Below, piece by piece: positions 23,803-39,152 of a stretch of DNA of 64,000 nucleotides (the stretch's first letter is position 1; every line of letters starts with the position of its first letter). Origin of the DNA: Bacteroidota bacterium (GTDB lineage: Bacteria > Bacteroidota > Bacteroidia > 2-12-FULL-35-15). The position numbers were made by a program, and so were the translations under genes. The stretch spans positions 310,001-374,000 of the forward strand of contig JAQZBR010000004.1 in the NCBI GenBank assembly GCA_029237775.1, written 5' to 3'. The notes below the pieces were generated by a model. That model was not told where the DNA came from. It worked only from the letters and a program-made list of their open reading frames with translations, and did no database searches.

Positions 23803-25206
23803 ATGTATATGAAGATCTTTACTAAAGTTGTAATTCTTTTTCTGTGTCTGGCAGCGAGTCGAACCATTGCACAATCAGTGGGTGGAACCACTTCCGGAGC
23901 CAACACATATTGCTCTTTTACAAATGCCGGTTTTATTTCCCTTTCCGGATTTACCGGAACTTCTTATTTCTGGGAGTCTTCAACTGATGGGATCACGTGG
24001 ACACCCACAGGAACTTCATGGTCCGGAACTACAACTCCATTTGTTAATCCTCCGGCCCTCGGACAAAGCTATAACAATGTTTCCCTGACAACTTGCTATC
24101 GCGCAATTGTAACAAATGGAGCATTTCCACCCGACACCTCAACAGTTTCCTGTATCACCGTTTTTGCTCCAACAGTTGCAGGCACAATCTCAGGCGGTGG
24201 TAATTTCTGTGGTAATTCAGGAAACGGCAATATTACTTTAGCCGGTAACACCGGAAATCCTACTTCATGGGAGTATTCAACCGATAATGGCCTTACCTGG
24301 ACAACGATTTCGAGCACAAGTACAAGCCTTGCATATTCGGGAATAACGCAGGCGACAATCTATCAGGCTATTGTTCAGAATGGCCCAACCTGTCCTAGCG
24401 ATACAACCAACACAGTTTTATTTACCATTGATTCACTTTCAAACGCAGGAACGATCACGGGAAATGATACGGTGTGTTACGGCAACAATGCAGGAGCTTT
24501 AAACATCAGCGGAATTACAGGAACAGTGCTTGGATGGATCAGCTCAACGGATAGTGGTTTATCCTGGAATCCAATTTCCAACACTACCGCCTCTCATACT
24601 TATGCTAATTTAACGCAATCCACACTATTTGGTGCCATTGTCAAAAACAATTCCTGTCCTGCAGATACCAGTTCATTTTCTTTGATCAATGTCCGGAATC
24701 CTGTTTTAGTGAATGCAGGGACTGACACATCAATTCAGGCAGGAGAATCGGTCGTTTTAAACGGCACTTCCGGAGGAGCGAGTATCTGGAGTCCTTCTAC
24801 AGGATTAAGCAGCGTGTATATACTAAATCCTGATGCACAACCAACCGTGACCACAGTCTACACATTAACAGTAACAGATTCTATTGGCTGTACCGGAACA
24901 GATAATGTGGTCATAACAATAATACCTGAAGAGTTCAATGGAATGGTATCGAACCTCTTTACTCCAAACGGGGATGGAATAAATGACTCATGGTATATTC
25001 AGGATATTCAAAATTTTCCCGGAAGTTCGGTTACTGTTTATAACATATACGGGATGAAAGTATATGAAAAGACTGATTATATGAATGATTGGAAAGGTAC
25101 TTACAACGGCTCTGAACTTCCTGACGGCACTTACTATTACATTCTGAAATTTGATGATAAACAAAAAACGATTAAAGGTTCGGTAGATATTCTGAAGAAT
25201 AAATAG
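23803..25206 (+). CDS. T9SS type B cargo with Ig-like repeats (gliding-motility-associated C-terminal domain)
   Basis: 467 residues. A signal peptide ends near residue 24 (RTIAQS). Three related beta-sandwich units follow, each with a Cys and a WExSTDxGxTW core (about residues 30-115, 117-205 and 206-297). Next is a PKD-like segment (VNAGTDTSIQAGESVVLNG). The last 85 residues are the type B sorting domain: VSNLFTPNGDGINDSW, VTVYNIYGMKVYE, DWKGTYNG, LPDGTYYYILKF. Such cargo is exported by the T9SS and depends on a cognate PorP/SprF; the next gene, one base away, is exactly that. The binding target is unknown. Confidence 0.92.
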   Translation: MYMKIFTKVVILFLCLAASRTIAQSVGGTTSGANTYCSFTNAGFISLSGFTGTSYFWESSTDGITWTPTGTSWSGTTTPFVNPPALGQSYNNVSLTTCYRAIVTNGAFPPDTSTVSCITVFAPTVAGTISGGGNFCGNSGNGNITLAGNTGNPTSWEYSTDNGLTWTTISSTSTSLAYSGITQATIYQAIVQNGPTCPSDTTNTVLFTIDSLSNAGTITGNDTVCYGNNAGALNISGITGTVLGWISSTDSGLSWNPISNTTASHTYANLTQSTLFGAIVKNNSCPADTSSFSLINVRNPVLVNAGTDTSIQAGESVVLNGTSGGASIWSPSTGLSSVYILNPDAQPTVTTVYTLTVTDSIGCTGTDNVVITIIPEEFNGMVSNLFTPNGDGINDSWYIQDIQNFPGSSVTVYNIYGMKVYEKTDYMNDWKGTYNGSELPDGTYYYILKFDDKQKTIKGSVDILKNK

Positions 25207-25207
25207 C

Positions 25208-26806
25208 ATGAGGAAAATAGGTCTTGGTATATTATTGATTTTTGTTGGCTTATCTGCGAAATCACAGCAGGTAGGAATGGCTTCTCATGCGTTTTACAAG
25301 CCAATGATCTACAACCCTGCTTTTGCGGGAAAGAATGAAAATGTAAATGCAATGCTCATCAGCCGTTCACAGTGGAGTGGCTTCAGAGGCTCACCGCAGT
25401 TAAATCTGTTGACTGTAGATGGGAGCCTGATGGAAAATAAAGCAGGTGTTGGGTTAACTCTTCTCGGCGACAAAAAAGGCCTGAATAAACGGGCAGGCGG
25501 ATATCTGAATTATGCATACAGGGTTCGTATAAATGATAACAGCAGCATACGATTTGGAATTGCCTTAGGGGTGCTTGATCAAACGATTGATTATACTGAT
25601 GCTCTCGTTGAAAATTCTTCTGACCCCTTTCTCTTTGGAAATACTGAACATAAAACTTCATTGGATGGTAATGCCGGTCTGGCCCTAATTCTCAAAGAAT
25701 TTGAGCTTGGCATTTCAGCGCCTCAATTATTCGGAAACAAAATAAACTATGTCGATAATAAGGAAATAAGATCAACATACTTACAAACGCGGCATTATAT
25801 AGGAACTTTGAAGTATCGTTTCTTAATTGCTAAAGAAAAAAAGATCTTCATTGTGCCTCAGGCTCTTGTGCGAATTGTTCCGAATGCCCCTTTTCAATAT
25901 GAGGGTACTCTAAACCTTGACTGGCAGGACAAATTCTGGATCGGTGCAAGCTATAAAAGCAACTATGCTTTGGTGGCTCACGCTGGAGTATGCCTTCATA
26001 AGCAGCTTTCGATCGGTTATGCATATGATATCATCATGGGGGATCTCGCCAACTATTCCGGTATCAGCCATGAAATTATGTTGAACTTTAAATTTGGCAA
26101 AAGTAAATCCACAGAGCCAGAAACACCTGTCGTTGCAGAGCGCAAAAATGAAGCTTATGAGAGACGTCTCGACAGTTTACAGGAAGTCCTGAGCGCGAAT
26201 CAAAACAGGCTCGCAGAAGATCAAAGAAAAATTACCGAGCTGAATGAAAAGCTTGAACAACAGGGCAAGCTAATTACTTCACAGGCGCAAAATATAAATC
26301 AACCGACAAATTCAAATCAACCTGCTGTTACGCAGCAGCAATCATCTTCAGCGAATCAAACTAACAATACAGAAAACAATTCTGATCCTGTAGAAAATAA
26401 ACAATCTCCTCAGAGCAATAACACCGGCACCGCAAATAACAACACTCCACAAAACAATAGCAATCAGAATGCTGCTGCGGTGGAAACAAATGCCAACAAG
26501 ACCATGAACAATGGCATCTGGTTCGTGACTAACAGCAGCAAGGATTTTAAAGACCAGAACGACCGGATGCCACAGAAAGGCTTTTATGTGATTGCCGGAA
26601 CTTTCACTTACCGTGATTTTGCGGAAGCTGAAGTAAAACGCTTATCGGGTGGCGGTTATAAAGCTAACTGGATGTACTTCTCTCCAAAACAATTTAACTA
26701 TGTTTATATTTCGAAACCTGCAACCAGGGAAGAAGCTCTTACAAAGGCACAGGCGGCCAGAAATTCGGGTATTAAAGATGCCTGGGTTCTTCAAATAACT
26801 GAATAA
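25208..26806 (+). CDS. PorP/SprF-family outer-membrane protein fused to a C-terminal SPOR domain
   Basis: 532 residues, about 200 longer than a usual PorP/SprF. Signal peptide, then the family start QVGMASHAFYKPMIYNPAFAG and a beta-barrel to about residue 300 (ending near SGISHEIMLNFKFGKSK). Residues about 315-360 are a coiled coil (RRLDSLQEVLSANQNRLAED). Residues 360-450 are an Asn/Gln/Thr-rich linker. The last 75-80 residues match a SPOR domain: GFYVIAGTFTYRDFAEAEV, then YVYISKPATREEALTKAQ and an IKDAWVL end. SPOR domains bind denuded peptidoglycan. The fusion would tie the cargo partner to the wall. It is probably translated with the preceding cargo gene. Confidence 0.88.
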   Translation: MRKIGLGILLIFVGLSAKSQQVGMASHAFYKPMIYNPAFAGKNENVNAMLISRSQWSGFRGSPQLNLLTVDGSLMENKAGVGLTLLGDKKGLNKRAGGYLNYAYRVRINDNSSIRFGIALGVLDQTIDYTDALVENSSDPFLFGNTEHKTSLDGNAGLALILKEFELGISAPQLFGNKINYVDNKEIRSTYLQTRHYIGTLKYRFLIAKEKKIFIVPQALVRIVPNAPFQYEGTLNLDWQDKFWIGASYKSNYALVAHAGVCLHKQLSIGYAYDIIMGDLANYSGISHEIMLNFKFGKSKSTEPETPVVAERKNEAYERRLDSLQEVLSANQNRLAEDQRKITELNEKLEQQGKLITSQAQNINQPTNSNQPAVTQQQSSSANQTNNTENNSDPVENKQSPQSNNTGTANNNTPQNNSNQNAAAVETNANKTMNNGIWFVTNSSKDFKDQNDRMPQKGFYVIAGTFTYRDFAEAEVKRLSGGGYKANWMYFSPKQFNYVYISKPATREEALTKAQAARNSGIKDAWVLQITE

Positions 26807-26985: not shown

Positions 26986-29900
26986 ATGAGGTTAACATTA
27001 CTCCTTATACTTTCTTTATTTACATTAAATTTCAGCACTTTCGGACAATGTGATCCTACAGTTCCTGTATTTAATGTGAATCTTACAGGAAATCCTTCGG
27101 GATCATGGACAAGTCCGTATGTACAACGAAATGGTAATTGTTGTGGAACTGTTGCTCCTGATAAATGCCTGAACTTTATAATCACACTTGATCCCGCAGC
27201 CGTTGGGATCAGCTTTAATATAATTGCCGGAGCTATTCCCGGTGGGGCATTATTTTATCAGATCAACTGCGGTCCACCAACCGCATTAGGCTCCCCTATT
27301 TGTTTGTCAGGCCCTGGTCCACACTTACTCACATTCTGCAAGCCCGGAAACAATCAAAATATTTACCAAATCACTTCTATACCGGGCGCAACCGGAGGAA
27401 CTAATATTGTTGTGAATGATGGTTGTATAGATACACTGCATGCTACAGGATTTAACGAATCCTCTGTTGTTTGGAATTCAATTGCACCAGGCGCTCCAGG
27501 GGCCTATAATTCTTTGCTTTCATGTTCGGACAGTTGTCTCAATCCAATTGTGACAGGTTCCGGGACACTACCTGCATACATTGATTATACTGTATGTGGC
27601 CGACCTGCTGCTCAATGTAATTTTGCTACTGTATGTGATACCGTAAGAGTGGTTTTCAATCCAACACTCGGGGTTACTATCGCGCCTATAAATCCGACTA
27701 TTTGTTTCGGACAAACCTCTACCACCATTACCGCAACGGGAAGCGGAGGAACGCCCCCCTATAGTTATTTATGGAATAGCGTCAACCCTTCAGCAAGCAT
27801 AAATGTCGGTACGGGAAATTACACGGTGCAGCTCTCCGATGCATCCGGGTGTCCGCCTACTTACGCCTCGGTCACAGTAACATCGTTTTCGGTAACAATT
27901 ACAGCCAATGCAGGCCCTGATCAAACCTTATGTTCTCAAACCACTCCGCATCCCATTCTTGCAGGTTCTGTAACCGGTGCCAGTGGAGGGATCTGGTCTG
28001 GGGGTGGCGGAACCTACAGCCCTAACAACGCTACTTTAAATGCTGTGTATACACCCACAGCGGCAGAGATCGCCAATGGTTTCGTGGATCTTACACTTAC
28101 AACAACAGGAAACGGAACATGTCCGTCAGCATCCGATATTGTAAGAATTAACTTTACGGGCTTCACAGGAACGGCTGCTGTTACTACAACGAATGTAAGC
28201 TGCTCAGGAGGGAGCAATGGTTCTGCAACTGTAACGATGACCGGAGGAACTCCTCCTTTCACGTACTCATGGAATACTGTGCCTGCGCAAACAAGTTCGA
28301 CAGCCACAAATCTTGTTGCCGGTACTTATTCGGTCACCATTACGAATGGGATCGGATGTACTTCTCAGACAACTGCAACTATTACTCAGCCTTTACCACT
28401 AGCGGTAAGTGGTGTGGTTACAAATGTGAGCTGTGCTGCAGGAAACAACGGATCTATCACTGTAACTTCTTCAGGAGGAACTTCTCCTTATCAGTATTTG
28501 TGGAGCCCCGGAAGTGCAACTACACCTACATTAAGTGGTCAGGTAGCGGGTACATATACTGTTTCCATCACCGACTCTAAAGGTTGTGTGATCACTTCCA
28601 ACTACACAATTACTCAACCTTTACCACTCTTGGTTGCAGTTACAAGAACGAACGTTAATTGTTTTGGTGGATCAAACGGAACGGCAACTTCAACAGTTAC
28701 GGGAGGAACCGGTCCTTATACTTATAACTGGACGCCTTCAGGAGGAACAGCTTCAACAGCCTCCGGACTGATCGCAGGAACTTACACTGTGACTGTCACC
28801 GATGCAAAAGGTTGTGTTGCAACGAACAGCGTTATCATCACTCAGCCGACACAGCTTGTTGGAAGTACAACAGTAAATAATGAAACATGTAATTATCTGA
28901 ACAACGGTTCAGCGACAGCAGTTGTATCAGGAGGTACACCTGCATATACCTATTTATGGCAACCCGGGGGAGCAACAACTGCGACTGCATCCGGATTAAG
29001 CAGCGGCACATACACGCTCACCGTGACTGATTCCAAAGGTTGCGTTGTTACTGCATTTGCGACAATCACGGAACCGGTTGTTTTGTCAGTAAGCCTGATC
29101 AACCAGGTGAATGTAAGTTGTTTTGCCGGAACTAACGGTTCTGTAACAGCGAGCCCTGCTGGCGGTACATCGGGGTACAGTTATTCTTGGACTCCGGGAG
29201 GCTCTACTTCACAAACATTATCAGGAGTTGCTGCAGGAACTTATACTGTGACAGTGACAGATGCCAACGGTTGTGTGATCCAGAATCAAACTACTATCAC
29301 TCAACCTGCCTTACCTCTTTCTGTTACAAACACTGTTACTAACGTGAGTTGTGCGGCAGGTACTAACGGTTCTATAACAGTAACGCCCGCAGGAGGCACA
29401 GCACCATATAGTTATTTATGGTCTCCGGGTGGACAAAATACAGGAACTGTTTCCGGCCTGGCAGCAGGAACTTATTCTGTTACGGTGACTGACGCTAAAG
29501 GATGTGTATTAAATGCATCATACACAATTACTCAACCTTTACCTCTCGCAATTACTTTTTCCCAAACAAATGTTAGTTGCTTTAATGGCGTTAACGGTTC
29601 AGCTACAGCCACTGTGACTGGCGGGACCGCGGGCTATTCTTACAACTGGGCACCAATGGGTGGTAACGCAGCCACAGCGACAGGATTACCTGCAGGAACA
29701 TATACTGTAACAGTCACAGATGCACAGGGATGTGTAGTAACAAACAGCGTTACGATCACACAACCACCGGCACTCATAGCAGCAACAACCGTGGTAAATG
29801 AGAGCTGTAACTATCTGAACAATGGGTCTGCAACTGCGACTCCTTCAGGCGGAACAGCTCCTTACACGTATTTATGGCAGCCCGGAAATTTAACTTCGAT

Positions 29901-32900
29901 CACGATCAGTGGACTCGCAAGTGGCACGTATAGCTTAACGGTGACTGACTCAAAGAGCTGTGTTGCTACAACAACTGCTGTTATAACAGAACCACCTGCA
30001 TTAGTTATCACCTTCAACTCACAGGTCAATGTGAGTTGTTTTAGCGGAAGCAATGGTGCTGTTGCTGCAACACCAAGCGGAGGAACCCCGGGATACACAT
30101 ATTCATGGATGCCGGGAGGAGCGACTACCAGTGCAGTTTCCGGTTTAATTGCAGGCACATATACTCTAACAATTACTGATGCAAACGGATGTACAGTTCA
30201 AAATCAGGTAACGATCACACAACCGCCTGTTCTAACGGTAACCTCTGCAATTACAAATGTTTCATGCAATTCGGGTAATAATGGTTCTATAACTGCTATT
30301 CCCGCAGGTGGAACTCCTCCATACAGCTACCTATGGCTTACAGGCGGACAAACTACAGCGACTATCAGCGGACAAACAGCAGGAACATATTCTGTTCAAG
30401 TCACAGATGCATTAGGTTGTCAGCTTACAACAGGCTTCACAATTACTCAACCGCTTCCTTTAGCCATAACATTTACACCAACTAATGTTTCTTGCTTCAA
30501 TGGAACCAATGGTGCTGCCACGAGCACTGTAACAGGTGGAACACCGCCATATTCGTATATGTGGAGCACAGGAGCTGTGACTCCAAATGTAACCGGTCTT
30601 ACTGCCGGCACATACACATTGACAGTTACAGATAACCTTGGATGTGTACTTAGCAATACGGTTGTGATAACACAGCCAACGGCCCTCGTTGTAAATGTTA
30701 GTGTTACGAACGAAACCTGTAATTATCTGAATAATGGTTCTGCTACAGCATCCGGCTCCGGAGGAACTCCCGGGTATACCTACTCATGGCAGCCGGGTAA
30801 TTTAGCTGCAGGAACGATTTCAAATCTTTCTTCAGGAACTTACACTGTAACCGCAACAGACGCTTTAGGTTGCACAACCACCAATACGGCAATAATTACG
30901 GAACCCACTCCCCTGGCTATTGCCTTTAACGGACAGGCCGATGTAAGCTGTTTTGGAGGTAATGACGGATCTGTATCAGCAATCCCCTCCGGTGGAACAC
31001 CTAATTACAGTTATTTGTGGATGCCGGGTGGAGCAACGACCAACTCTGTGTCGAATTTAGCCGCAGGAACTTACACACTCACAATTACCGATGCTAACGG
31101 TTGTACAGTGCAAAATACTATAACCATTACTCAGCCGCTTAGCCCCCTTTCTGTTTCAGGTACATCAACCCCTACAAATTGTTTTGATGGAGCGGATGGG
31201 ACAGCAACAGTAAATGCTGCAGGTGGAACCGGTCCGTATACATATTATTGGATGCCAATGAATATTTCCGGGCAGACGATCACGAATCTTCTTGCAGGAA
31301 CTTACACTGTGGAAGCTACCGATTCGAAAGGTTGCATTGCTACGAATACAGTCGTTGTTAATCAGCCACCACAGTTAATCCTTATTACCTCAACCGTAAA
31401 TTCGAATTGTGGTTTCCCGACTGGTCAGGCATCGGTAACCGTAACAGGAGGGTTTACGCCCTATACATATTCCTGGTCATCCGGCTCTAACACTGCCTCC
31501 GCTACGGGTTTGATTGCGGGACCATACACAGTGACCGTTACTGACCAGAATGGTTGTGTTGAAACACAATTTGCAAACGTAAATGATAATTCAGGTCCTT
31601 CAGCAACAATCTTTAACGTGATCAATGTTACCTGTTATGGTGGCAACAATGGTTCTGCCTCTGTAGGTGTAGCAGGAGGAACCGGTCCTTTCACCTACAA
31701 CTGGACTCCTTATGGAGGTACTGGTGTAACTGCGACAGGCCTTGTCGCAGGCTCTTACACTGTAACAGTCCTTGACGCGAATGGATGCCAGTCGAATGCT
31801 ACAACAAGCCCTGATATTTTGCAGCCACCACCGATCTATGTGAATGTTAGCACCAATCCGGTAAGCTGTTTCGGTGGCAGCGATGGGACGGCATCAGCGG
31901 TTGCTTCGGGCGGTTATCCGGGCACAACAGGTTATACTTACAACTGGCTTCCCGGTGGAACCAGCGGGCCATCCGTGACGGGCCTTACAGCAACTACGTT
32001 TACAGTACAGGTTACCGATTCAAATAGTTGTGTACATAATGAACCTTTTACGATCACAGAGCCGTCAGCGGCATTATCGGTAGCTGTTTCATTTACGGCA
32101 GCGAATTGCAGCGGAAGCTCTGACGGTACATTATCTGCAGTTGCTGCGGGAGGTACAGGCCCTTACAATTATAACTGGATGCCGGGTAATCTGGCGGGTG
32201 CAAATCTTTCATCAATGCCTGCAGGAACTTACACAGTCACTGTGCAGGATTCCAAAGGTTGCTCGGTAACAAACTCAATTACGATCATACAACCGACACC
32301 AATTCTGCTGAGCAGTTCGAGTGTAAATTCTAATTGCAGTTTGCCGAATGGGCAAGCGACTGTTTCAGCATCCGGGGGAACACCGGGCTATAGCTATCTA
32401 TGGTCAACCGGTGGAACTAACGCAACGGAAACAGGACTTCTATTTGGAACTTATACAGTTACTGTTACAGATGCCAATGGTTGTATATCAACGACAAGTG
32501 TTACCGTAAGCGACAATGCAGGTCCTGTAGTGTCTGTATCATCGGTAACGAACGTAAGCTGTTACGGTGGAACGAACGGGACGGCTACTGCAACTGTTAC
32601 CGGAGGGGCCTTCCCTTTCACTTACTCATGGACTCCATTAGGAGGAGTTAATGCTACCGCGACAGGATTATCTGCAGGAACCTATACGGTGATTGCCACT
32701 GATGCAAACGGTTGTGCATCTCAACCGGCTGTCAGTGGAATGATCACTCAACCTTCAATTGTTATAATCAATACAACAACAAACAATGTTACATGTCTCG
32801 GAGCAAATAACGGATCAGTAACTGCATCCGCTTCAGGAGGAACGCCCGGATACACTTATTTATGGCTGCCTTCAACTAATGCGGCAACCATGACGAACCT

Positions 32901-35900
32901 CGCACCGGGAACTTATACCGTTCAGGTAACCGATGCGAACAGTTGTGTTCAAACTGCAACGGCATCGATAACTCAACCTTCTGCAGCGCTTTCGGTAAGC
33001 ACCGCTGCTATACCGGTCTCATGTTTCGGAGGAAGCAATGGAGGTGGAACTGCAATAGCTTCTGGAGGTACAGCGCCTTACGGTTATACCTGGATGCCGG
33101 GTGCAGTATCAGGGCCTGCGATAGGCGGAGTCGCGATCGGAACATATACAGTGACTGCCACAGATCTTAATGGTTGTACTGCAACCAACACTATTATTGT
33201 AACTCAACCTACTGTAATAACTATAAGCACAGGAAGTGATAATGCCAGCTGCGGAACAGCGAGCGGTGTCGCATACGCGTCTGCTTCGGGTGGTACTCCG
33301 ACATATTCATACTTATGGAATCCGGGAGCAATAGCCAATGACTCCGCAGCCTTTGCACCTCCGGGAAATTATACTGTAACAGTTACCGACAATAACGGAT
33401 GTGTATCCACTGCAAGTGTCGCAGTGAATAATAATCCGGGGCCTGTTGCATCTGTTACCTCATCAACGAATGTTAGCTGTTTTGGCGGCTCTGATGGAAC
33501 TGCTACATCAGGACTTACAAGCGGATCACCTCCTTTCACATATTCATGGTTACCTTTGGGGGGAAATAACCCGGTTGCGACAGGCTTGATCGCAGGAACA
33601 TATACCGTAACTATAACAGATAACAATGGTTGTATCTCAACTGCTGTAAGCCCACTCATTACACAACCAACACAGCTGAATGTAAACGTTACAACTACCA
33701 ATGTAAGCTGTAATGGGGGAAATAACGGAACAGCAATGGCCGCTGCAGGTGGAGGAACTCCCGGATACACTTATCAATGGTTACCATCAGGCAGCGCAGG
33801 CAGCAGCATCTCTTCACTGATCGCAGGTACCTATACTGTTCAGGCTACCGACAACAAATCATGTACACAAACAGCAACATTTGTGATAACGGAACCAGCT
33901 GTTCTCACAGCAAGCATTTCCGGTTCATCTAACGTTAGCTGCTTCGGAGGCAGCAACGGATCCGCCACAGCTACAGGCAACGGAGGAACCCCATTTTACA
34001 CATATAACTGGATGCCTTATGGAGGCACGAACGCAACGGCAAACGGATTAATAGCAGGAACCTATACGGTTACAGTAAAAGACTCTAACAATTGCTCGAC
34101 AACTGCAAGTATTATCATTACACAACCGGTTCAGGCTCTTTCGGCTACTGCTTCCGGAACATCGACTTTATGCTTTGGTTCATCCGATGGCACCGCAACC
34201 GTAACTGCAGCCGGGGGAACCTCAGGTTACACTTACCTATGGAGCCCTCTTGGAGGAACAGGCGCAACTGCTACAGGGCTTCCTGCAAATGCTTACACCG
34301 TTCTCGTTACCGATGCTAACGGATGTCAGACGAATGCTTCAGTTAATATCGGACAACCTACTATTATTACTGCTTCATTAAGCAGCGTTAGTCCTTCATG
34401 TGGTTTTGCAAATGGCTCAATCACATCTCTTATTTCCGGAGGAACAGGTCCTTACACTTATTTCTGGACACCGGGAGGAGCAACCACAGCTGATATCTCG
34501 AATGTTGGGCCCGGCAATTACACTTTGCAGATAACCGATGTACAAAATTGTATTCAAAGTGTTTCCACTACACTTTCAAACATTGCAGGTCCGGATGTTG
34601 TCATCTCATCTATAACTAATGTATCCTGCTTTGGTGGTAATAATGGTACAGCTACTGCTTTTATTTCTGCAGGCTCTCCTCCATACACCATGTCGTGGGG
34701 GCCTTTCGGAGGCAATGGGATCACCGGGACCGGATTGTCGGCAGGCACATATACAATAACAGTAACCGATTCACTTGGTTGCAATAATACTGCGACAGCT
34801 ACTATTACAGAACCTACTCAACTCGGGATTTCCATTAGTTCACTGACAGATGTTTCCTGTTTTAACGGAAGCAATGGTACAGTTACAGTTACCGGAACCG
34901 GTGGAACTTCTCCGTATACTTATGTATGGTCTACGGGAGAAACTGCTGCAACAATTGACTCTCTTTCAGCTGCAACGTACACTGTAACAAGTACGGACTT
35001 TAACAATTGCATCACCTCAATCTCAATCAACATTGACCAGCCGGATTCACTGCTTATGACTATTGGTACCGTGACCGGTCCAAGCTGTTTTAATAGCACT
35101 AATGGTAGTGCTGTAATTATTGCTACCGGTGGTACTATCCCTTATACCTATTTGTGGTCGAATGGACAAACGGGAAGTATCGGACAAAATCTGGCAGCAG
35201 GAACTTATTCAGTTGTAATCACAGACGCGAATAATTGTATTGCCATAGACAGTCTTACCCTCACGCAGCCACCGCAGGTTATTACGACAGCAAGTGATAA
35301 CGATACTATCTGTCTTGGCTCGTCAGGCAGCGTTTCTGCTACAGCTACCGGTGGTGTAGGTAACTATTATTACGTTTGGAATCCGGGGCCGTCAATTAAT
35401 TCAGGAACCTTAAATGCAACTCCAACAGCAAACACAGAATATATTGTTGTTGCATACGATCAGGATGGTTGCGCTGGAACGCCTGACTCTGTTTCAATGA
35501 TCGTGTATTATTTAACAGGTGCAAATGTTGACGCAATAGCTTACTCACCGATTTGTCCCGGACAGGTATCAACTGTATACGTTCAGCTTTCAGGAATTAC
35601 CGGACCTGTTACATACGCCTGGAACAATGGACTAGGAAACGGCCCGGGCGCATACCTTGTCACACCCAACGTACCGACTACATATATTGTAACGGTAACA
35701 AATTCCTGTGGAGCAAGTATTACCGATTCAGCAACTGTTACATTCAATCCTCCTCCGGTTATTGCTTTATCTTCCGACACTAATTCTGTTTGTGTACCAG
35801 ATGTAGTTCAGTTCAACGACAGTTCAATCACCGGTAATGTGAATGACCCGATAATATCATGGTATTGGAACTTTGGTGACGGTACATCTTCTACGTTGCA

Positions 35901-36564
35901 GAATCCGACACATACTTATCCTTCTGCAGGAACATTCCCTGTAACTGTTACGGTAACCACTTCAGGCGGTTGTACTAACAATAACGGATCTGCACCATAT
36001 ATAATAAATGCTCATCCTTATCCTGTAGCTGCCTTTACCTTGAACGCCACTTATTTCAATTTACCGTACGACCAACTGATCGCGACCAATCAATCTGTGG
36101 GAGCAACTACATACGTATGGAACTTTGGCGATGGCGGAACATCAACAGCAATGAATCCAACCTACCTGTATTCAGAAGTTGGGATCTATCCTGTTATGAT
36201 GATCGCGAGCAACAATTTTGGTTGTTCAGACACCGCATACTCTCAGGTTGAAACCAATGCCGATGTTATTTTCCCTAACGTATTTACTCCGAATCCTGAA
36301 GGTCCTTCAGGAGGTTTCTATGATATTACAAGTTTAACGAATGATATCTTCTTCCCTTACACTTCGGGTGTTACAGAATTTAAACTGCAGATCTTTAATC
36401 GTTGGGGTGAACTTATTTTTGAAACCTTTGATGTTAAACAAGGTTGGGACGGATACTATCGCGGCCAACTTTGTCAGCAGGATGTATACATCTGGAAAGC
36501 ATACTTAAAATTAAACAACGGAAGAACATTTAATAAAACTGGGGATGTTACGCTGCTTCGATAA
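26986..36564 (+). CDS. Giant SprB-repeat adhesin, T9SS type B cargo
   Basis: 3192 residues. Signal peptide (MRLTLLLILSLFTLNFSTFGQ), then a unique N-terminal region of about 250 residues and two divergent beta units. Residues about 395-2765 hold some 31 SprB modules of about 75 residues, each beginning TNVSCFGGxNG, with GGTPPYxYxW in the middle and TVTDxxGC near the end, so two cysteines per module. Two PKD-like units follow (WYWNFGDGTSST, YVWNFGDGGTST; about 2918-3088). The last 100 residues are a type B sorting domain (IFPNVFTPNPEG, FNRWGELIFE, GWDGYYRG). In Flavobacterium, SprB is a mobile gliding adhesin; a surface adhesive role here is inference. It heads a three-gene operon. Confidence 0.95.
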   Translation: MRLTLLLILSLFTLNFSTFGQCDPTVPVFNVNLTGNPSGSWTSPYVQRNGNCCGTVAPDKCLNFIITLDPAAVGISFNIIAGAIPGGALFYQINCGPPTALGSPICLSGPGPHLLTFCKPGNNQNIYQITSIPGATGGTNIVVNDGCIDTLHATGFNESSVVWNSIAPGAPGAYNSLLSCSDSCLNPIVTGSGTLPAYIDYTVCGRPAAQCNFATVCDTVRVVFNPTLGVTIAPINPTICFGQTSTTITATGSGGTPPYSYLWNSVNPSASINVGTGNYTVQLSDASGCPPTYASVTVTSFSVTITANAGPDQTLCSQTTPHPILAGSVTGASGGIWSGGGGTYSPNNATLNAVYTPTAAEIANGFVDLTLTTTGNGTCPSASDIVRINFTGFTGTAAVTTTNVSCSGGSNGSATVTMTGGTPPFTYSWNTVPAQTSSTATNLVAGTYSVTITNGIGCTSQTTATITQPLPLAVSGVVTNVSCAAGNNGSITVTSSGGTSPYQYLWSPGSATTPTLSGQVAGTYTVSITDSKGCVITSNYTITQPLPLLVAVTRTNVNCFGGSNGTATSTVTGGTGPYTYNWTPSGGTASTASGLIAGTYTVTVTDAKGCVATNSVIITQPTQLVGSTTVNNETCNYLNNGSATAVVSGGTPAYTYLWQPGGATTATASGLSSGTYTLTVTDSKGCVVTAFATITEPVVLSVSLINQVNVSCFAGTNGSVTASPAGGTSGYSYSWTPGGSTSQTLSGVAAGTYTVTVTDANGCVIQNQTTITQPALPLSVTNTVTNVSCAAGTNGSITVTPAGGTAPYSYLWSPGGQNTGTVSGLAAGTYSVTVTDAKGCVLNASYTITQPLPLAITFSQTNVSCFNGVNGSATATVTGGTAGYSYNWAPMGGNAATATGLPAGTYTVTVTDAQGCVVTNSVTITQPPALIAATTVVNESCNYLNNGSATATPSGGTAPYTYLWQPGNLTSITISGLASGTYSLTVTDSKSCVATTTAVITEPPALVITFNSQVNVSCFSGSNGAVAATPSGGTPGYTYSWMPGGATTSAVSGLIAGTYTLTITDANGCTVQNQVTITQPPVLTVTSAITNVSCNSGNNGSITAIPAGGTPPYSYLWLTGGQTTATISGQTAGTYSVQVTDALGCQLTTGFTITQPLPLAITFTPTNVSCFNGTNGAATSTVTGGTPPYSYMWSTGAVTPNVTGLTAGTYTLTVTDNLGCVLSNTVVITQPTALVVNVSVTNETCNYLNNGSATASGSGGTPGYTYSWQPGNLAAGTISNLSSGTYTVTATDALGCTTTNTAIITEPTPLAIAFNGQADVSCFGGNDGSVSAIPSGGTPNYSYLWMPGGATTNSVSNLAAGTYTLTITDANGCTVQNTITITQPLSPLSVSGTSTPTNCFDGADGTATVNAAGGTGPYTYYWMPMNISGQTITNLLAGTYTVEATDSKGCIATNTVVVNQPPQLILITSTVNSNCGFPTGQASVTVTGGFTPYTYSWSSGSNTASATGLIAGPYTVTVTDQNGCVETQFANVNDNSGPSATIFNVINVTCYGGNNGSASVGVAGGTGPFTYNWTPYGGTGVTATGLVAGSYTVTVLDANGCQSNATTSPDILQPPPIYVNVSTNPVSCFGGSDGTASAVASGGYPGTTGYTYNWLPGGTSGPSVTGLTATTFTVQVTDSNSCVHNEPFTITEPSAALSVAVSFTAANCSGSSDGTLSAVAAGGTGPYNYNWMPGNLAGANLSSMPAGTYTVTVQDSKGCSVTNSITIIQPTPILLSSSSVNSNCSLPNGQATVSASGGTPGYSYLWSTGGTNATETGLLFGTYTVTVTDANGCISTTSVTVSDNAGPVVSVSSVTNVSCYGGTNGTATATVTGGAFPFTYSWTPLGGVNATATGLSAGTYTVIATDANGCASQPAVSGMITQPSIVIINTTTNNVTCLGANNGSVTASASGGTPGYTYLWLPSTNAATMTNLAPGTYTVQVTDANSCVQTATASITQPSAALSVSTAAIPVSCFGGSNGGGTAIASGGTAPYGYTWMPGAVSGPAIGGVAIGTYTVTATDLNGCTATNTIIVTQPTVITISTGSDNASCGTASGVAYASASGGTPTYSYLWNPGAIANDSAAFAPPGNYTVTVTDNNGCVSTASVAVNNNPGPVASVTSSTNVSCFGGSDGTATSGLTSGSPPFTYSWLPLGGNNPVATGLIAGTYTVTITDNNGCISTAVSPLITQPTQLNVNVTTTNVSCNGGNNGTAMAAAGGGTPGYTYQWLPSGSAGSSISSLIAGTYTVQATDNKSCTQTATFVITEPAVLTASISGSSNVSCFGGSNGSATATGNGGTPFYTYNWMPYGGTNATANGLIAGTYTVTVKDSNNCSTTASIIITQPVQALSATASGTSTLCFGSSDGTATVTAAGGTSGYTYLWSPLGGTGATATGLPANAYTVLVTDANGCQTNASVNIGQPTIITASLSSVSPSCGFANGSITSLISGGTGPYTYFWTPGGATTADISNVGPGNYTLQITDVQNCIQSVSTTLSNIAGPDVVISSITNVSCFGGNNGTATAFISAGSPPYTMSWGPFGGNGITGTGLSAGTYTITVTDSLGCNNTATATITEPTQLGISISSLTDVSCFNGSNGTVTVTGTGGTSPYTYVWSTGETAATIDSLSAATYTVTSTDFNNCITSISINIDQPDSLLMTIGTVTGPSCFNSTNGSAVIIATGGTIPYTYLWSNGQTGSIGQNLAAGTYSVVITDANNCIAIDSLTLTQPPQVITTASDNDTICLGSSGSVSATATGGVGNYYYVWNPGPSINSGTLNATPTANTEYIVVAYDQDGCAGTPDSVSMIVYYLTGANVDAIAYSPICPGQVSTVYVQLSGITGPVTYAWNNGLGNGPGAYLVTPNVPTTYIVTVTNSCGASITDSATVTFNPPPVIALSSDTNSVCVPDVVQFNDSSITGNVNDPIISWYWNFGDGTSSTLQNPTHTYPSAGTFPVTVTVTTSGGCTNNNGSAPYIINAHPYPVAAFTLNATYFNLPYDQLIATNQSVGATTYVWNFGDGGTSTAMNPTYLYSEVGIYPVMMIASNNFGCSDTAYSQVETNADVIFPNVFTPNPEGPSGGFYDITSLTNDIFFPYTSGVTEFKLQIFNRWGELIFETFDVKQGWDGYYRGQLCQQDVYIWKAYLKLNNGRTFNKTGDVTLLR
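28410..31160 (+). repeat. Higher-order repeat: three copies of a four-module SprB block
   Basis: Modules run A-B-C-D three times with a period of about 915 bp (starts near 28417, 29335 and 30250). The C module always carries ETCNYLNNGSAT or ESCNYLNNGSAT; the D module starts QVNVSCF or QADVSCF; the A module ends in TITQPLPL. This points to duplication of a whole block. Confidence 0.8.
31380..34600 (+). repeat. Second SprB block series (E-F-G-H type)
   Basis: E modules, marked by a Cys followed by no FGG (NSNCGFPTGQ, NSNCSLPNGQ, NASCGTASG, SPSCGFANG) and a closing N-x-GP linker, start near 31390, 32320, 33238 and 34390. The first two intervals are close to 920-930 bp; the last is longer by about one module. 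Confidence 0.65.
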
Positions 36565-38110
36565 AAAATATCTAACTGTGCTGATCTTAACACTGATCTT
36601 CAGCAATTGCTTTTCCCAGCTTACGCCAAGGGAGAACAGAAAGCTGTTTATGAAAGCTGATAAGGCATTTGATTATGGGGATTATTTAAATGCACTCAGC
36701 ATTTACAATAAGATCTACCCTTCAGACAGTACCAATGATGAGCTTAATTATAAAATAGGTGTTTGCAATTTCGAGATCAAAAGGCCAAGAACACAATCTA
36801 AAAAGTATTTTGAAAAAGTTTCAGCATCCGACTTTCCTGAAACAAATTATTACCTCGGAAGAATATATCATCTCGAAAGAGCATATGATAAAGCTATCGG
36901 ATATTACACGCAATATAAATATCTGGCTCAGGGTGTTGATCATACCCGGAAAGAAATTGATGACCTCATTCAGAAGTCGCAAACTGCAATGCTTATGGAG
37001 TCAAGAGCAGATAACTCGCTTCAGATCAAAAATCTTGGAGAAGGTATCAACTCTGAATATGCCGAATATGCTCCTCTGATTCCCGCTGATGGAAGTTTTC
37101 TCATGTTCACATCCAGGAGAAAAAACAATGTGTGGACAAACACAGATCCTCATGGAAACTTCTTTGAAGATATTTATGTTTCGGACAGAAGCGGAGAAGA
37201 ATGGCAGAAACCAAGAATGCTTGATACCAACATCAACACATTGGTTCATGACGCCTGCACTGGATTATCTGCAGACGGTGAAAAGTTAATGCTTTACCGC
37301 ACGAGCAAGGATCTTAAAAGCGGGGATATTTACGAAAGTCAGTTGACTGATAAGAAATGGTCCGACCCTAAACTTCTTGGATCTGTTGTTAACTCACCTG
37401 AGTTTCTTGAAACTAGCGCCTGCTATTCAACGAATGGTGATATCCTGTTTTTTTCCAGCAACAGACCTGGCGGACTCGGAGGTAAGGATCTTTATTTGTC
37501 GAGAAAATTACCGAATGGAAATTGGGGAGAGCCATTTAACCTGGGCCCGAATATCAACACTGAATATGACGAGGACGCACCTTTCATCCATCCTGCGGTT
37601 AACACTCTTTATTTCAGTTCTGAAGGGCATAAGAATATGGGAGGGTATGATATTTTCAAATCCAACTTTGATGAAACGGGGTTATTCACGAGTCCGGAAA
37701 ATTTAGGCGCACCAATAAATACAGCTGACGATGACATATTTTTTGTTCTTAGCACCGATGCATCAACAGGTTATCTGTCATCCGAAAGGCCTGGCGGATT
37801 TGGCTCCCAGGATATCTACAGTGTCTTCTTCCCTGTCAACAACATTCCATTGAACGTTTATAATATTTATGTTTTTGATGACTCAGATAAAATAATCAAG
37901 AGTGTTGACATTCTGATCACCGATATGGAGAAAAAGGCTGTACACGGCATGTATAAGTCGAATGAGAATACAGGAAAAGCAATTGTCATCTCTACTCCCG
38001 GTAAGGAGTATAGAATTGCGATACAGTCACCAGGTTATGAACCATACATTTCAAATGTTAAGTTAACACCTGATAAGGAAAATATTTTCCGGCTTGTTAA
38101 ACAGAAATAA
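36545..38110 (+). CDS. TPR/PD40 beta-propeller envelope protein, PorE-like without OmpA domain
   Basis: 521 residues. N-terminal signal (YLTVLILTLIFSNCFSQ). Residues about 30-145 are tetratricopeptide-like helices (FMKADKAFDYGDYLNALSIYNKIY). Residues about 165-430 are a WD40-like (PD40) propeller with repeated FFSSNRPGGLGGKDLY, YFSSEGHKNMGGYDIF and YLSSERPGGFGSQDIY motifs. The last 90 residues are a carboxypeptidase-regulatory-like fold. This is the PorE order (TPR, propeller, CRD) minus the peptidoglycan-binding OmpA domain. The start overlaps the adhesin stop by 20 bases, and its TAA overlaps the next ATG (TAATG). It probably forms a complex with the adhesin and the PorP that follows. Confidence 0.85.
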   Translation: MLRCFDKKYLTVLILTLIFSNCFSQLTPRENRKLFMKADKAFDYGDYLNALSIYNKIYPSDSTNDELNYKIGVCNFEIKRPRTQSKKYFEKVSASDFPETNYYLGRIYHLERAYDKAIGYYTQYKYLAQGVDHTRKEIDDLIQKSQTAMLMESRADNSLQIKNLGEGINSEYAEYAPLIPADGSFLMFTSRRKNNVWTNTDPHGNFFEDIYVSDRSGEEWQKPRMLDTNINTLVHDACTGLSADGEKLMLYRTSKDLKSGDIYESQLTDKKWSDPKLLGSVVNSPEFLETSACYSTNGDILFFSSNRPGGLGGKDLYLSRKLPNGNWGEPFNLGPNINTEYDEDAPFIHPAVNTLYFSSEGHKNMGGYDIFKSNFDETGLFTSPENLGAPINTADDDIFFVLSTDASTGYLSSERPGGFGSQDIYSVFFPVNNIPLNVYNIYVFDDSDKIIKSVDILITDMEKKAVHGMYKSNENTGKAIVISTPGKEYRIAIQSPGYEPYISNVKLTPDKENIFRLVKQK

Positions 38111-39114
38111 TGATAAAGCCAATTAAAATATTATTTGTTGTTTTAGCATTGTACTCAGTTACTGCTAAAGGACAGGATATGCACTTCACGCAATTCTATT
38201 CATCATCTCTTTATCTGAACCCTGCATTTACCGGGGCTGATGTCTGCTCAAGGTTTTCTCTCACATACCGGAATCAATGGCCCGGTATTTCAAAAGCTTA
38301 CAAAAGCTATCTCGCATCATTTGATCATTATCTGACAACCTATAATCTCGGCCTAGGTTTACTCATTGGAAATGATGTTGCGGGGACGGGACAACTTAGA
38401 ACTACCGTAATTAATCCGCTTGTTGCATACGAGGCTGTGCTTACCAAAAAACTAAGTATGCGTTTAGGAGTTCAACCGGGCCTAGGTATTCGCAGCATAA
38501 ACTATAATAATCTTGTTTTCGGAGATCAGATTGCACGTGGTGGAAATGTTGCTAGTGTTGAAACCCCTACGCAAAACAAAGTCTATTTTGATATCGGAGC
38601 AGGAATGCTTGCATTTACGAGAAGAGCATGGTTTGGAGTCTCATTTTATCATCTTAACAAACCAAACGAATCACTATTAGGTGAAAATGGAGAAAGTATC
38701 TTGCCATTAAAATATTCATTTCACGGAGGCTATAAGCATGCTCTTAATCCGGATGAAAAAGAAGAAACCCAAAGACGTTCTGTTTCATTTGCAATGAACT
38801 ACAGAGGACAGGCGGAATTCGATCAGCTGGATATTGGTGGCTACTATACTCAATATGTTTTTAATGTCGGGCTTTGGTACAGAGGACTTCCCGGACTTAA
38901 AGCATATAAGCCGGGCTATAGCAACAATGACGCTTTTGCAATTGTCATTGGAGTTAAAACCGACAAAATGAATATTGGCTACAGCTACGATACTACTATT
39001 TCAAAACTGACAGCAAAGTCAGGGGGCGCACATGAAATCTCTGCTTCATATCAATTATGCAAGCTTAATAAGAAAAAGAAAAAACGTTTACTTGTTCCCT
39101 GTCCGAAGTTTTAA
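38110..39114 (+). CDS. PorP/SprF-family T9SS outer-membrane protein
   Basis: 334 residues, the usual family length. A signal peptide ends near TAKGQD, then the typical MHFTQFYSSSLYLNPAFTGAD start and a 14-strand-like beta-barrel. It ends in SASYQLCKLNKKKKKR, a basic tail after the last barrel strand. Family members are needed for export and surface attachment of type B cargo encoded nearby; the cargo here is the 3192-residue adhesin. The start codon overlaps the preceding stop, indicating translational coupling. A terminator follows at 39123. Confidence 0.92.
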   Translation: MIKPIKILFVVLALYSVTAKGQDMHFTQFYSSSLYLNPAFTGADVCSRFSLTYRNQWPGISKAYKSYLASFDHYLTTYNLGLGLLIGNDVAGTGQLRTTVINPLVAYEAVLTKKLSMRLGVQPGLGIRSINYNNLVFGDQIARGGNVASVETPTQNKVYFDIGAGMLAFTRRAWFGVSFYHLNKPNESLLGENGESILPLKYSFHGGYKHALNPDEKEETQRRSVSFAMNYRGQAEFDQLDIGGYYTQYVFNVGLWYRGLPGLKAYKPGYSNNDAFAIVIGVKTDKMNIGYSYDTTISKLTAKSGGAHEISASYQLCKLNKKKKKRLLVPCPKF

Positions 39115-39122
39115 TCAATCAA

Positions 39123-39152
39123 GAAAAAAAACCGCTTAAAGCGGTTTTTTTA
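39123..39152. terminator. Bidirectional terminator closing the adhesin operon
   Basis: CCGC TTAAA GCGG hairpin extended by A-T pairs, an A-run before it and a T-run after, between convergent genes. Confidence 0.85.

Follow-up and report, generated by a model that had tools for sequence, protein, structure and literature searches.

Current papers relate the fate of a type IX adhesin, wall-fixed or driven along the gliding track, to whether it has a PorE-like partner. The PorE-PorP-PG1035 system of P. gingivalis comprises a type B cargo, a PorP barrel and a periplasmic partner made up of TPR, propeller and CRD domains. PorE is a lipoprotein and ties PorP to peptidoglycan via its peptidoglycan-binding OmpA domain (PMC9143113). 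In the Fjoh_3952/Fjoh_3951/Fjoh_3950 operon of F. johnsoniae, a type B cargo, its shuttle and a PorE homolog are encoded together. The PorE homolog lies downstream of the shuttle and was proposed as a wall anchor, and the adhesin was observed to be static, whereas the moving adhesins of this organism are encoded without a PorE-like gene (PMC12618676).

The SprB-SprF system of F. johnsoniae represents the moving kind. SprF, the carrier of the SprB adhesin, is described with a Cys-Xaa-Cys (CXC) motif and no adjoining PorE-like gene. Cys326 in its C-tail is disulfide-bonded to Cys343 of GldK, which is part of the moving track, and this bond is needed for sustained SprB movement (PMC12635249).

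The window analysed here, a stretch of 64,000 nt from a member of the Bacteroidota, contains a unit that breaks the PorE-partner rule, since its PorE-like partner lacks the wall-binding domain and the tail of its carrier resembles the track-linked kind. The features of the locus are listed in Table 1. The three open reading frames, the 20-base overlap and the TAATG junction described in an earlier note on this DNA were confirmed. The TAA stop of the adhesin gene (36562-36564) lies within the middle gene, which creates the 20-base overlap. Base 38110 is common to the TAA of the middle gene and the ATG of the PorP gene, giving a 1-base overlap. With these overlaps and the hairpin with T-runs after the PorP gene, the adhesin, middle protein and PorP look like a single transcription unit.

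Table 1. Positions of the genes, domains and cysteine codons of the unit and its upstream neighbour in the window
Feature	Position	Strand	Basis or remark
Neighbouring unit, short type B cargo (467 aa)	23803..25206	+	PF13585 3.9e-26; outside module
Neighbouring unit, PorP with SPOR-like domain (aa 456-528)	25208..26806	+	No terminal cysteine; outside module
Giant adhesin gene (3192 aa)	26986..36564	+	PF13573 8.6e-280, PF18911 7.6e-26, PF13585 9.5e-8
Type B CTD, module subtype	36271..36558	+	TIGR04131 genome-wide match and module profile; extra loop of about 17 aa, motif LCQQDVY
Middle-protein gene (521 aa)	36545..38110	+	PorE/CHU_0125-like without OmpA; NCBIfam matches, AlphaFold2 model
TPR-like helical domain (aa 28-153)	36626..37003	+	AlphaFold2 helices; Pfam TPR below cut-off
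Beta-propeller (aa 160-428)	37022..37828	+	PD40 1.2e-12; model strands; PDB matches to generic propellers
CRD-like beta domain (aa 437-516)	37853..38092	+	AlphaFold2 model; CarboxypepD_reg below cut-off
PorP/SprF-family outer-membrane barrel (334 aa)	38110..39114	+	PF11751 7.7e-62, TIGR03519 2.5e-69, above curated cut-offs
Cys46 of PorP, just before first strand	38245..38247	+	Co-occurs with Cys317
Cys317 of PorP, just after last strand	39058..39060	+	Predicted to pair with Cys46 in a disulfide
Terminal motif CPKF with Cys331	39100..39111	+	Proposed GldK-reactive cysteine
Intrinsic terminator 3' of PorP	39125..39151	+	Strong; 12-pair stem and T-run

The PorP of the neighbouring unit had been said to carry a SPOR domain. 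Its C-terminus is indeed SPOR-like, scoring 20.7 bits in Pfam against a cut-off of 21 (E 5.5e-4), and the assignment was backed by relatives of the same layout. A cargo and PorP-SPOR unit lies directly upstream of the module both in the window (23803-26806) and in another genome (G009, locus L170), so that the two-unit arrangement is conserved. In a third genome (G008), the PorP upstream of the module (L045:840-2321) has a CRD-like tail in the place of SPOR.

The middle protein has the domain order of PorE, from TPR through beta-propeller to a CRD-like domain, as seen in the NCBIfam matches and the AlphaFold2 model. Over these domains the best match was the CHU_0125 family (OmpA-like outer membrane integrity protein, NF053607; PMC5891637). 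The CHU_0125_OmpA model was matched at 230.6 bits, below its curated cut-off of 620 bits, over positions 8-485 of 639, and then the protein ended. The remaining positions of the model, in which it continues into OmpA, are missing. The match to PorE (T9SS_PorE, NF052230; 185 bits) covered positions 8-437 of 648 and also ran to the end of the protein. The middle protein terminates after the CRD-like domain, where PorE runs on into OmpA. CarboxypepD_reg, under the cut-off here, was found at 2.2e-6 in a paralogue (L016).

No OmpA domain was found in the middle protein by Pfam at E<1 or by the genome-wide OmpA search. The AlphaFold2 monomer (mean pLDDT 92.7) contained nothing beyond the small beta domain. 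Along with the ends of the NCBIfam matches, these results bore out the earlier claim that OmpA is absent. Foldseek on the model returned generic propellers with low TM-scores, and a sequence search of the PDB matched mainly designed TPRs and no PorE relative.

Signal peptidase I was predicted to cleave the middle protein, the mature form starting at about Q25. A pattern scan found no lipobox in it, and lipobox-like sequences in 2 of 32 unit members. It is therefore unlike PorE in having neither the lipoprotein anchor nor OmpA, and is predicted from its sequence to be soluble and periplasmic. Having lost OmpA and lacking a lipid anchor, it cannot by itself tie a complex to peptidoglycan or the membrane.

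The cargo-middle-PorP order with an OmpA-less middle protein was found in 37 copies in dozens of Bacteroidota, a recurrence beyond what chance would give. This count takes in three loci resolved by hand (L058, L087 and L283), and in four copies the cargo was cut off by the contig end. Gene calls in the relatives' loci were mechanical (longest ORF), which may have led to errors in some starts and in a few hidden genes. One further copy (L092) has kept, besides CPKF, an OmpA that looks intact. Adjacent genes of the unit mostly overlap or are separated by no more than about 12 bases. The reading frames are intact, with the propeller well conserved. OmpA-bearing units, unlike these, run in the order cargo-PorP-PorE.

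The middle-protein family is very large, being present in 41 of 41 relatives, many with 10-35 matches each. Its members closest to the window protein are nearly always about 520 aa long, without OmpA, and located between a type B adhesin and a PorP. Trees were computed without the OmpA columns for the middle proteins and without the tail for the PorPs. The unit middle proteins formed one clade of 35 rows (SH-aLRT 99), and the unit PorPs one clade of 40 rows (SH-aLRT 99). In the former, 34 of the 35 rows were OmpA-less, and only two (L085 and L100) were not beside a PorP. The two outcomes that would have spoken against the earlier note did not arise: the middle protein does not lie mostly away from cargo and PorP genes, and OmpA was not detected in it.

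Loss of OmpA as a rarity was considered and rejected: the family tree shows at least 18 changes in OmpA presence, and several groups without OmpA sit away from any PorP. Copies of the unit are scarce beyond the window's genus and some uncultured families. It constitutes a dedicated, conserved module of cargo, PorE-like protein without OmpA, and PorP, as the earlier note had supposed. No description of an OmpA-less version of the cargo/PorP/PorE kind was found in the open-access literature, and the unit is apparently a conserved, so far undescribed variant of it.

The adhesin consists of a signal peptide, 33 SprB repeats, two PKD domains and a type B CTD. Its C-terminus matched CHU_C at 32.5 bits, above the Pfam cut-off of 27. 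TIGR04131 gave 32.4 bits on the whole protein, just below the NCBI cut-off of 35, and 37.2 bits in the genome search. The module adhesins share a common type B CTD subtype with an extra loop, and most have a motif like LCQQDVY.

A profile of the module CTD scored 170 bits on the window adhesin and at most 111 bits outside the modules and their sister adhesins. Module cargo scored at least 133 bits and other CTDs at most 111, the sole exception being a second adhesin that adjoins the unit in L046. In a blind sample of 198 Bacteroidota genomes, a module-level match was obtained in two, the window's own and G103, too few to set the module against GldJ across the phylum. The G103 locus thus found had all three genes of the unit, its middle protein lacking OmpA and its PorP ending in CAKF. 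This was a small test, which the unit passed. These scores point to a sorting-domain subtype that belongs to the module.

CTD distances correlated with PorP distances (r 0.82 for all pairs, 0.77 within modules, and 0.71 among the paralogues of the window's genome, n=18). This was expected of cognate pairs.

The PorP model was recognized by Foldseek as a barrel like FadL and the T9SS translocon; a PDB sequence search with PorP gave no relative, only matches at chance level. Among 191 PorPs, Cys46 and Cys317 were both present in 48 and both absent in 139, with four discordant. Their co-occurrence and their positions in the model suggested that they staple the barrel rim, which would leave Cys331 as a single free thiol. 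We interpreted them as most likely forming a separate structural disulfide. A twin pair of Cys317 and Cys331, as in SprF, was rejected, because Cys317 goes with Cys46. The Cys-Xaa-Cys motif of SprF is absent from the PorP C-tail, in which Cys317 and Cys331 are 14 apart.

The terminal cysteine, in the motif C-[PA]-K-F, was present in 36 of the 37 units without OmpA, while the basic stretch that precedes it was variable. None of 17 PorPs fused to SPOR, OmpA or another extra domain had it. PorPs beside OmpA-bearing PorE-like proteins had a tail cysteine in 12 of 29 cases, in other motifs. This number, together with L092, indicated that the cysteine does not exclude a wall anchor.

In the raw table, which ignores kinship, the terminal cysteine was associated with the lack of OmpA (33/34 versus 12/29, Fisher p 7e-7). 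The tree, on the other hand, contained no informative independent pair. The cysteine was accordingly rejected as an independent correlate of OmpA loss and taken as a clade feature, and the p value was not relied on. The association with the unit rests on a single ancestry and so is not independent evidence. Module-like CTDs were also found in L256, L284 and L286, with PorPs that end in IPCPTF or IPCPSF plus a few residues and with no middle protein. As these pairs carry the cysteine, the cysteine tail probably predates the middle protein's recruitment.

PorPs of a second type, whose tails include NCPRL, PCDRY and CPIYM, were seen in L027, L030, L034, L176, L226, L243 and others, adjoining OmpA-bearing PorE-like proteins. 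In L247 (5968-7518) and L275 (5783-7477) a PorP barrel is fused directly to OmpA, and neither has a terminal cysteine. Judged by domain content, such a fusion is another way to join carrier and wall.

The sister group of the unit PorPs consisted of gldJ-adjacent PorPs, which mostly end in CPSF. The branch that joins the two groups, a clade of 66 rows, had moderate support (75), and 60 of the 66 rows had a terminal cysteine. This kinship with gldJ-adjacent, cysteine-tailed PorPs suggests that the PorP is attached to the gliding track rather than to the wall.

GldK in the window's genome carries Cys350, which was invariant in the 15 GldKs compared. Its distance from Cys294 is similar to that between Cys343 and Cys285 in F. 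johnsoniae. A strong match to GldJ was obtained in 33 of the 35 genomes with the unit, but not in G008 (76% complete) and G045. PorG of P. gingivalis, which is linked to PorK, likewise has a single cysteine.

The unit thus combines elements of the described systems. With PorE-PorP-PG1035 (PMC9143113) it shares the type B cargo, the PorP barrel and the TPR/propeller/CRD partner; it differs in the CPKF tail and in the middle gene, which lies between cargo and PorP. With SprB-SprF (PMC12635249) it shares an adhesin with SprB repeats and a type B CTD, a PorP/SprF carrier with a cysteine in the periplasmic C-tail, and a GldK with an invariant cysteine in the same genome. Unlike that pair, it has a PorE-like partner, which lacks OmpA, and a carrier with a single terminal cysteine and, apart from it, the Cys46-Cys317 pair. 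The Fjoh_3952 operon (PMC12618676) likewise encodes cargo, shuttle and PorE homolog together, but here OmpA is lacking and the middle gene precedes PorP.

We propose that the T9SS would export the adhesin and pass its sorting domain to the cognate PorP, which would then hold the adhesin on the surface. Such handover of cargo to carrier is known for SprB/SprF and PG1035/PorP, and for the unit of the window it is inferred by analogy. The middle protein would serve as a periplasmic adaptor of PorE descent, and its TPR and propeller would hold it beneath the PorP barrel. Cys331 in the CPKF tail would most likely be disulfide-bonded to the invariant GldK cysteine, as SprF is, and the adhesin on a GldK-bound PorP would be pulled along the gliding track.

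A track-coupled, wall-free adhesin with a PorE-derived adaptor is suggested by the PorE-like partner that lacks OmpA and a lipid anchor, by the cysteine-tailed carrier, and by the absence of the cysteine from all the fused PorPs. We put its chances at about even. Against it stand the tail cysteines of PorPs with an OmpA-bearing partner and the coexistence of OmpA and CPKF in L092. SprF has the motif CXC, and the unit PorP only a single C near its end. Further points against it are the single ancestry of cysteine and unit, the moderate support for the branch with the gldJ-adjacent PorPs, and the two genomes in which GldJ was not strongly matched. In addition, the moving adhesins of F. johnsoniae are not encoded with a PorE-like protein (PMC12618676). 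If the adhesin is track-coupled, removal of Cys331 or addition of OmpA to the middle protein should switch the outcome between fixed and mobile.

More tentatively, and with somewhat less than even confidence, the unit may represent a third class of type B adhesin complex, distinct both from the bare type of SprF/SprB and from the wall-anchored one of PorP/PorE. This class would have a GldK-attached carrier with a single cysteine, an OmpA-less adaptor released from the wall, and its own CTD subtype.

The earlier note had framed the unit in terms of wall attachment, which the two units may solve differently, or of docking on another PorE. We found no evidence pointing that way, and its interpretation held for the dedicated module only. 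A static complex might still borrow a wall anchor, the middle protein docking through its TPR or propeller on an OmpA-bearing PorE/CHU_0125-like protein. The genome has many such paralogues (26 OmpA matches, with a tandem array in L065), both folds are common in protein docking (PMC9143113), and the 12 cysteine-tailed PorPs with an OmpA-bearing partner are compatible with it. The conserved unit, however, contains no OmpA-bearing gene, and a borrowed anchor leaves both the near-invariant terminal cysteine and the gldJ-adjacent kinship of PorP unexplained. We consider it unlikely.

The middle protein could alternatively fold or load PorP and the adhesin at the translocon, with no role in anchoring or movement. 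Its predicted soluble, anchor-free periplasmic state, the position of its gene between cargo and carrier with translational overlap, and the related cargo-PorP pairs that manage without it (L256, L284 and L286) would suit such an assembly or secretion factor. On the other hand, the proteins nearest to it, PorE and the CHU_0125 family, have been described as structural components of the envelope; PorE forms a stable complex with PorP (PMC9143113), and the sequence bears no sign of chaperone activity. A role of this sort is doubtful. That the unit is a drifting paralogue which simply lost OmpA and has no special attachment is very improbable, for despite the repeated changes in OmpA presence on the family tree, its absence was kept in all but one row of the clade, the terminal cysteine persisted in many families in a tail that otherwise varied, the frames stayed intact, and the propeller is well conserved. 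The track-coupled adhesin remained our preferred reading.

Further genes of the family were noted in the window's genome (G000, 4.08 Mb), which has 24 PorP/SprF and 49 type B CTD matches; for F. johnsoniae, 10 PorP-like proteins and 12 type B CTDs have been reported. Another PorE-like gene without OmpA, with PD40 and two PKD domains, lies downstream of its adjoining PorP in C6 (L024:9489-11938) and also in L171; the tail of that PorP is SPRYF, without a cysteine. The L065 array (C1:225000-244900), seen also in L066 and L074, consists of four PorE/CHU_0125-like proteins in tandem, some of them without OmpA, with no PorP nearby. It adjoins a gene whose start, MAQVELIMPKMGESVAEATI, resembles dihydrolipoyl acyltransferase.
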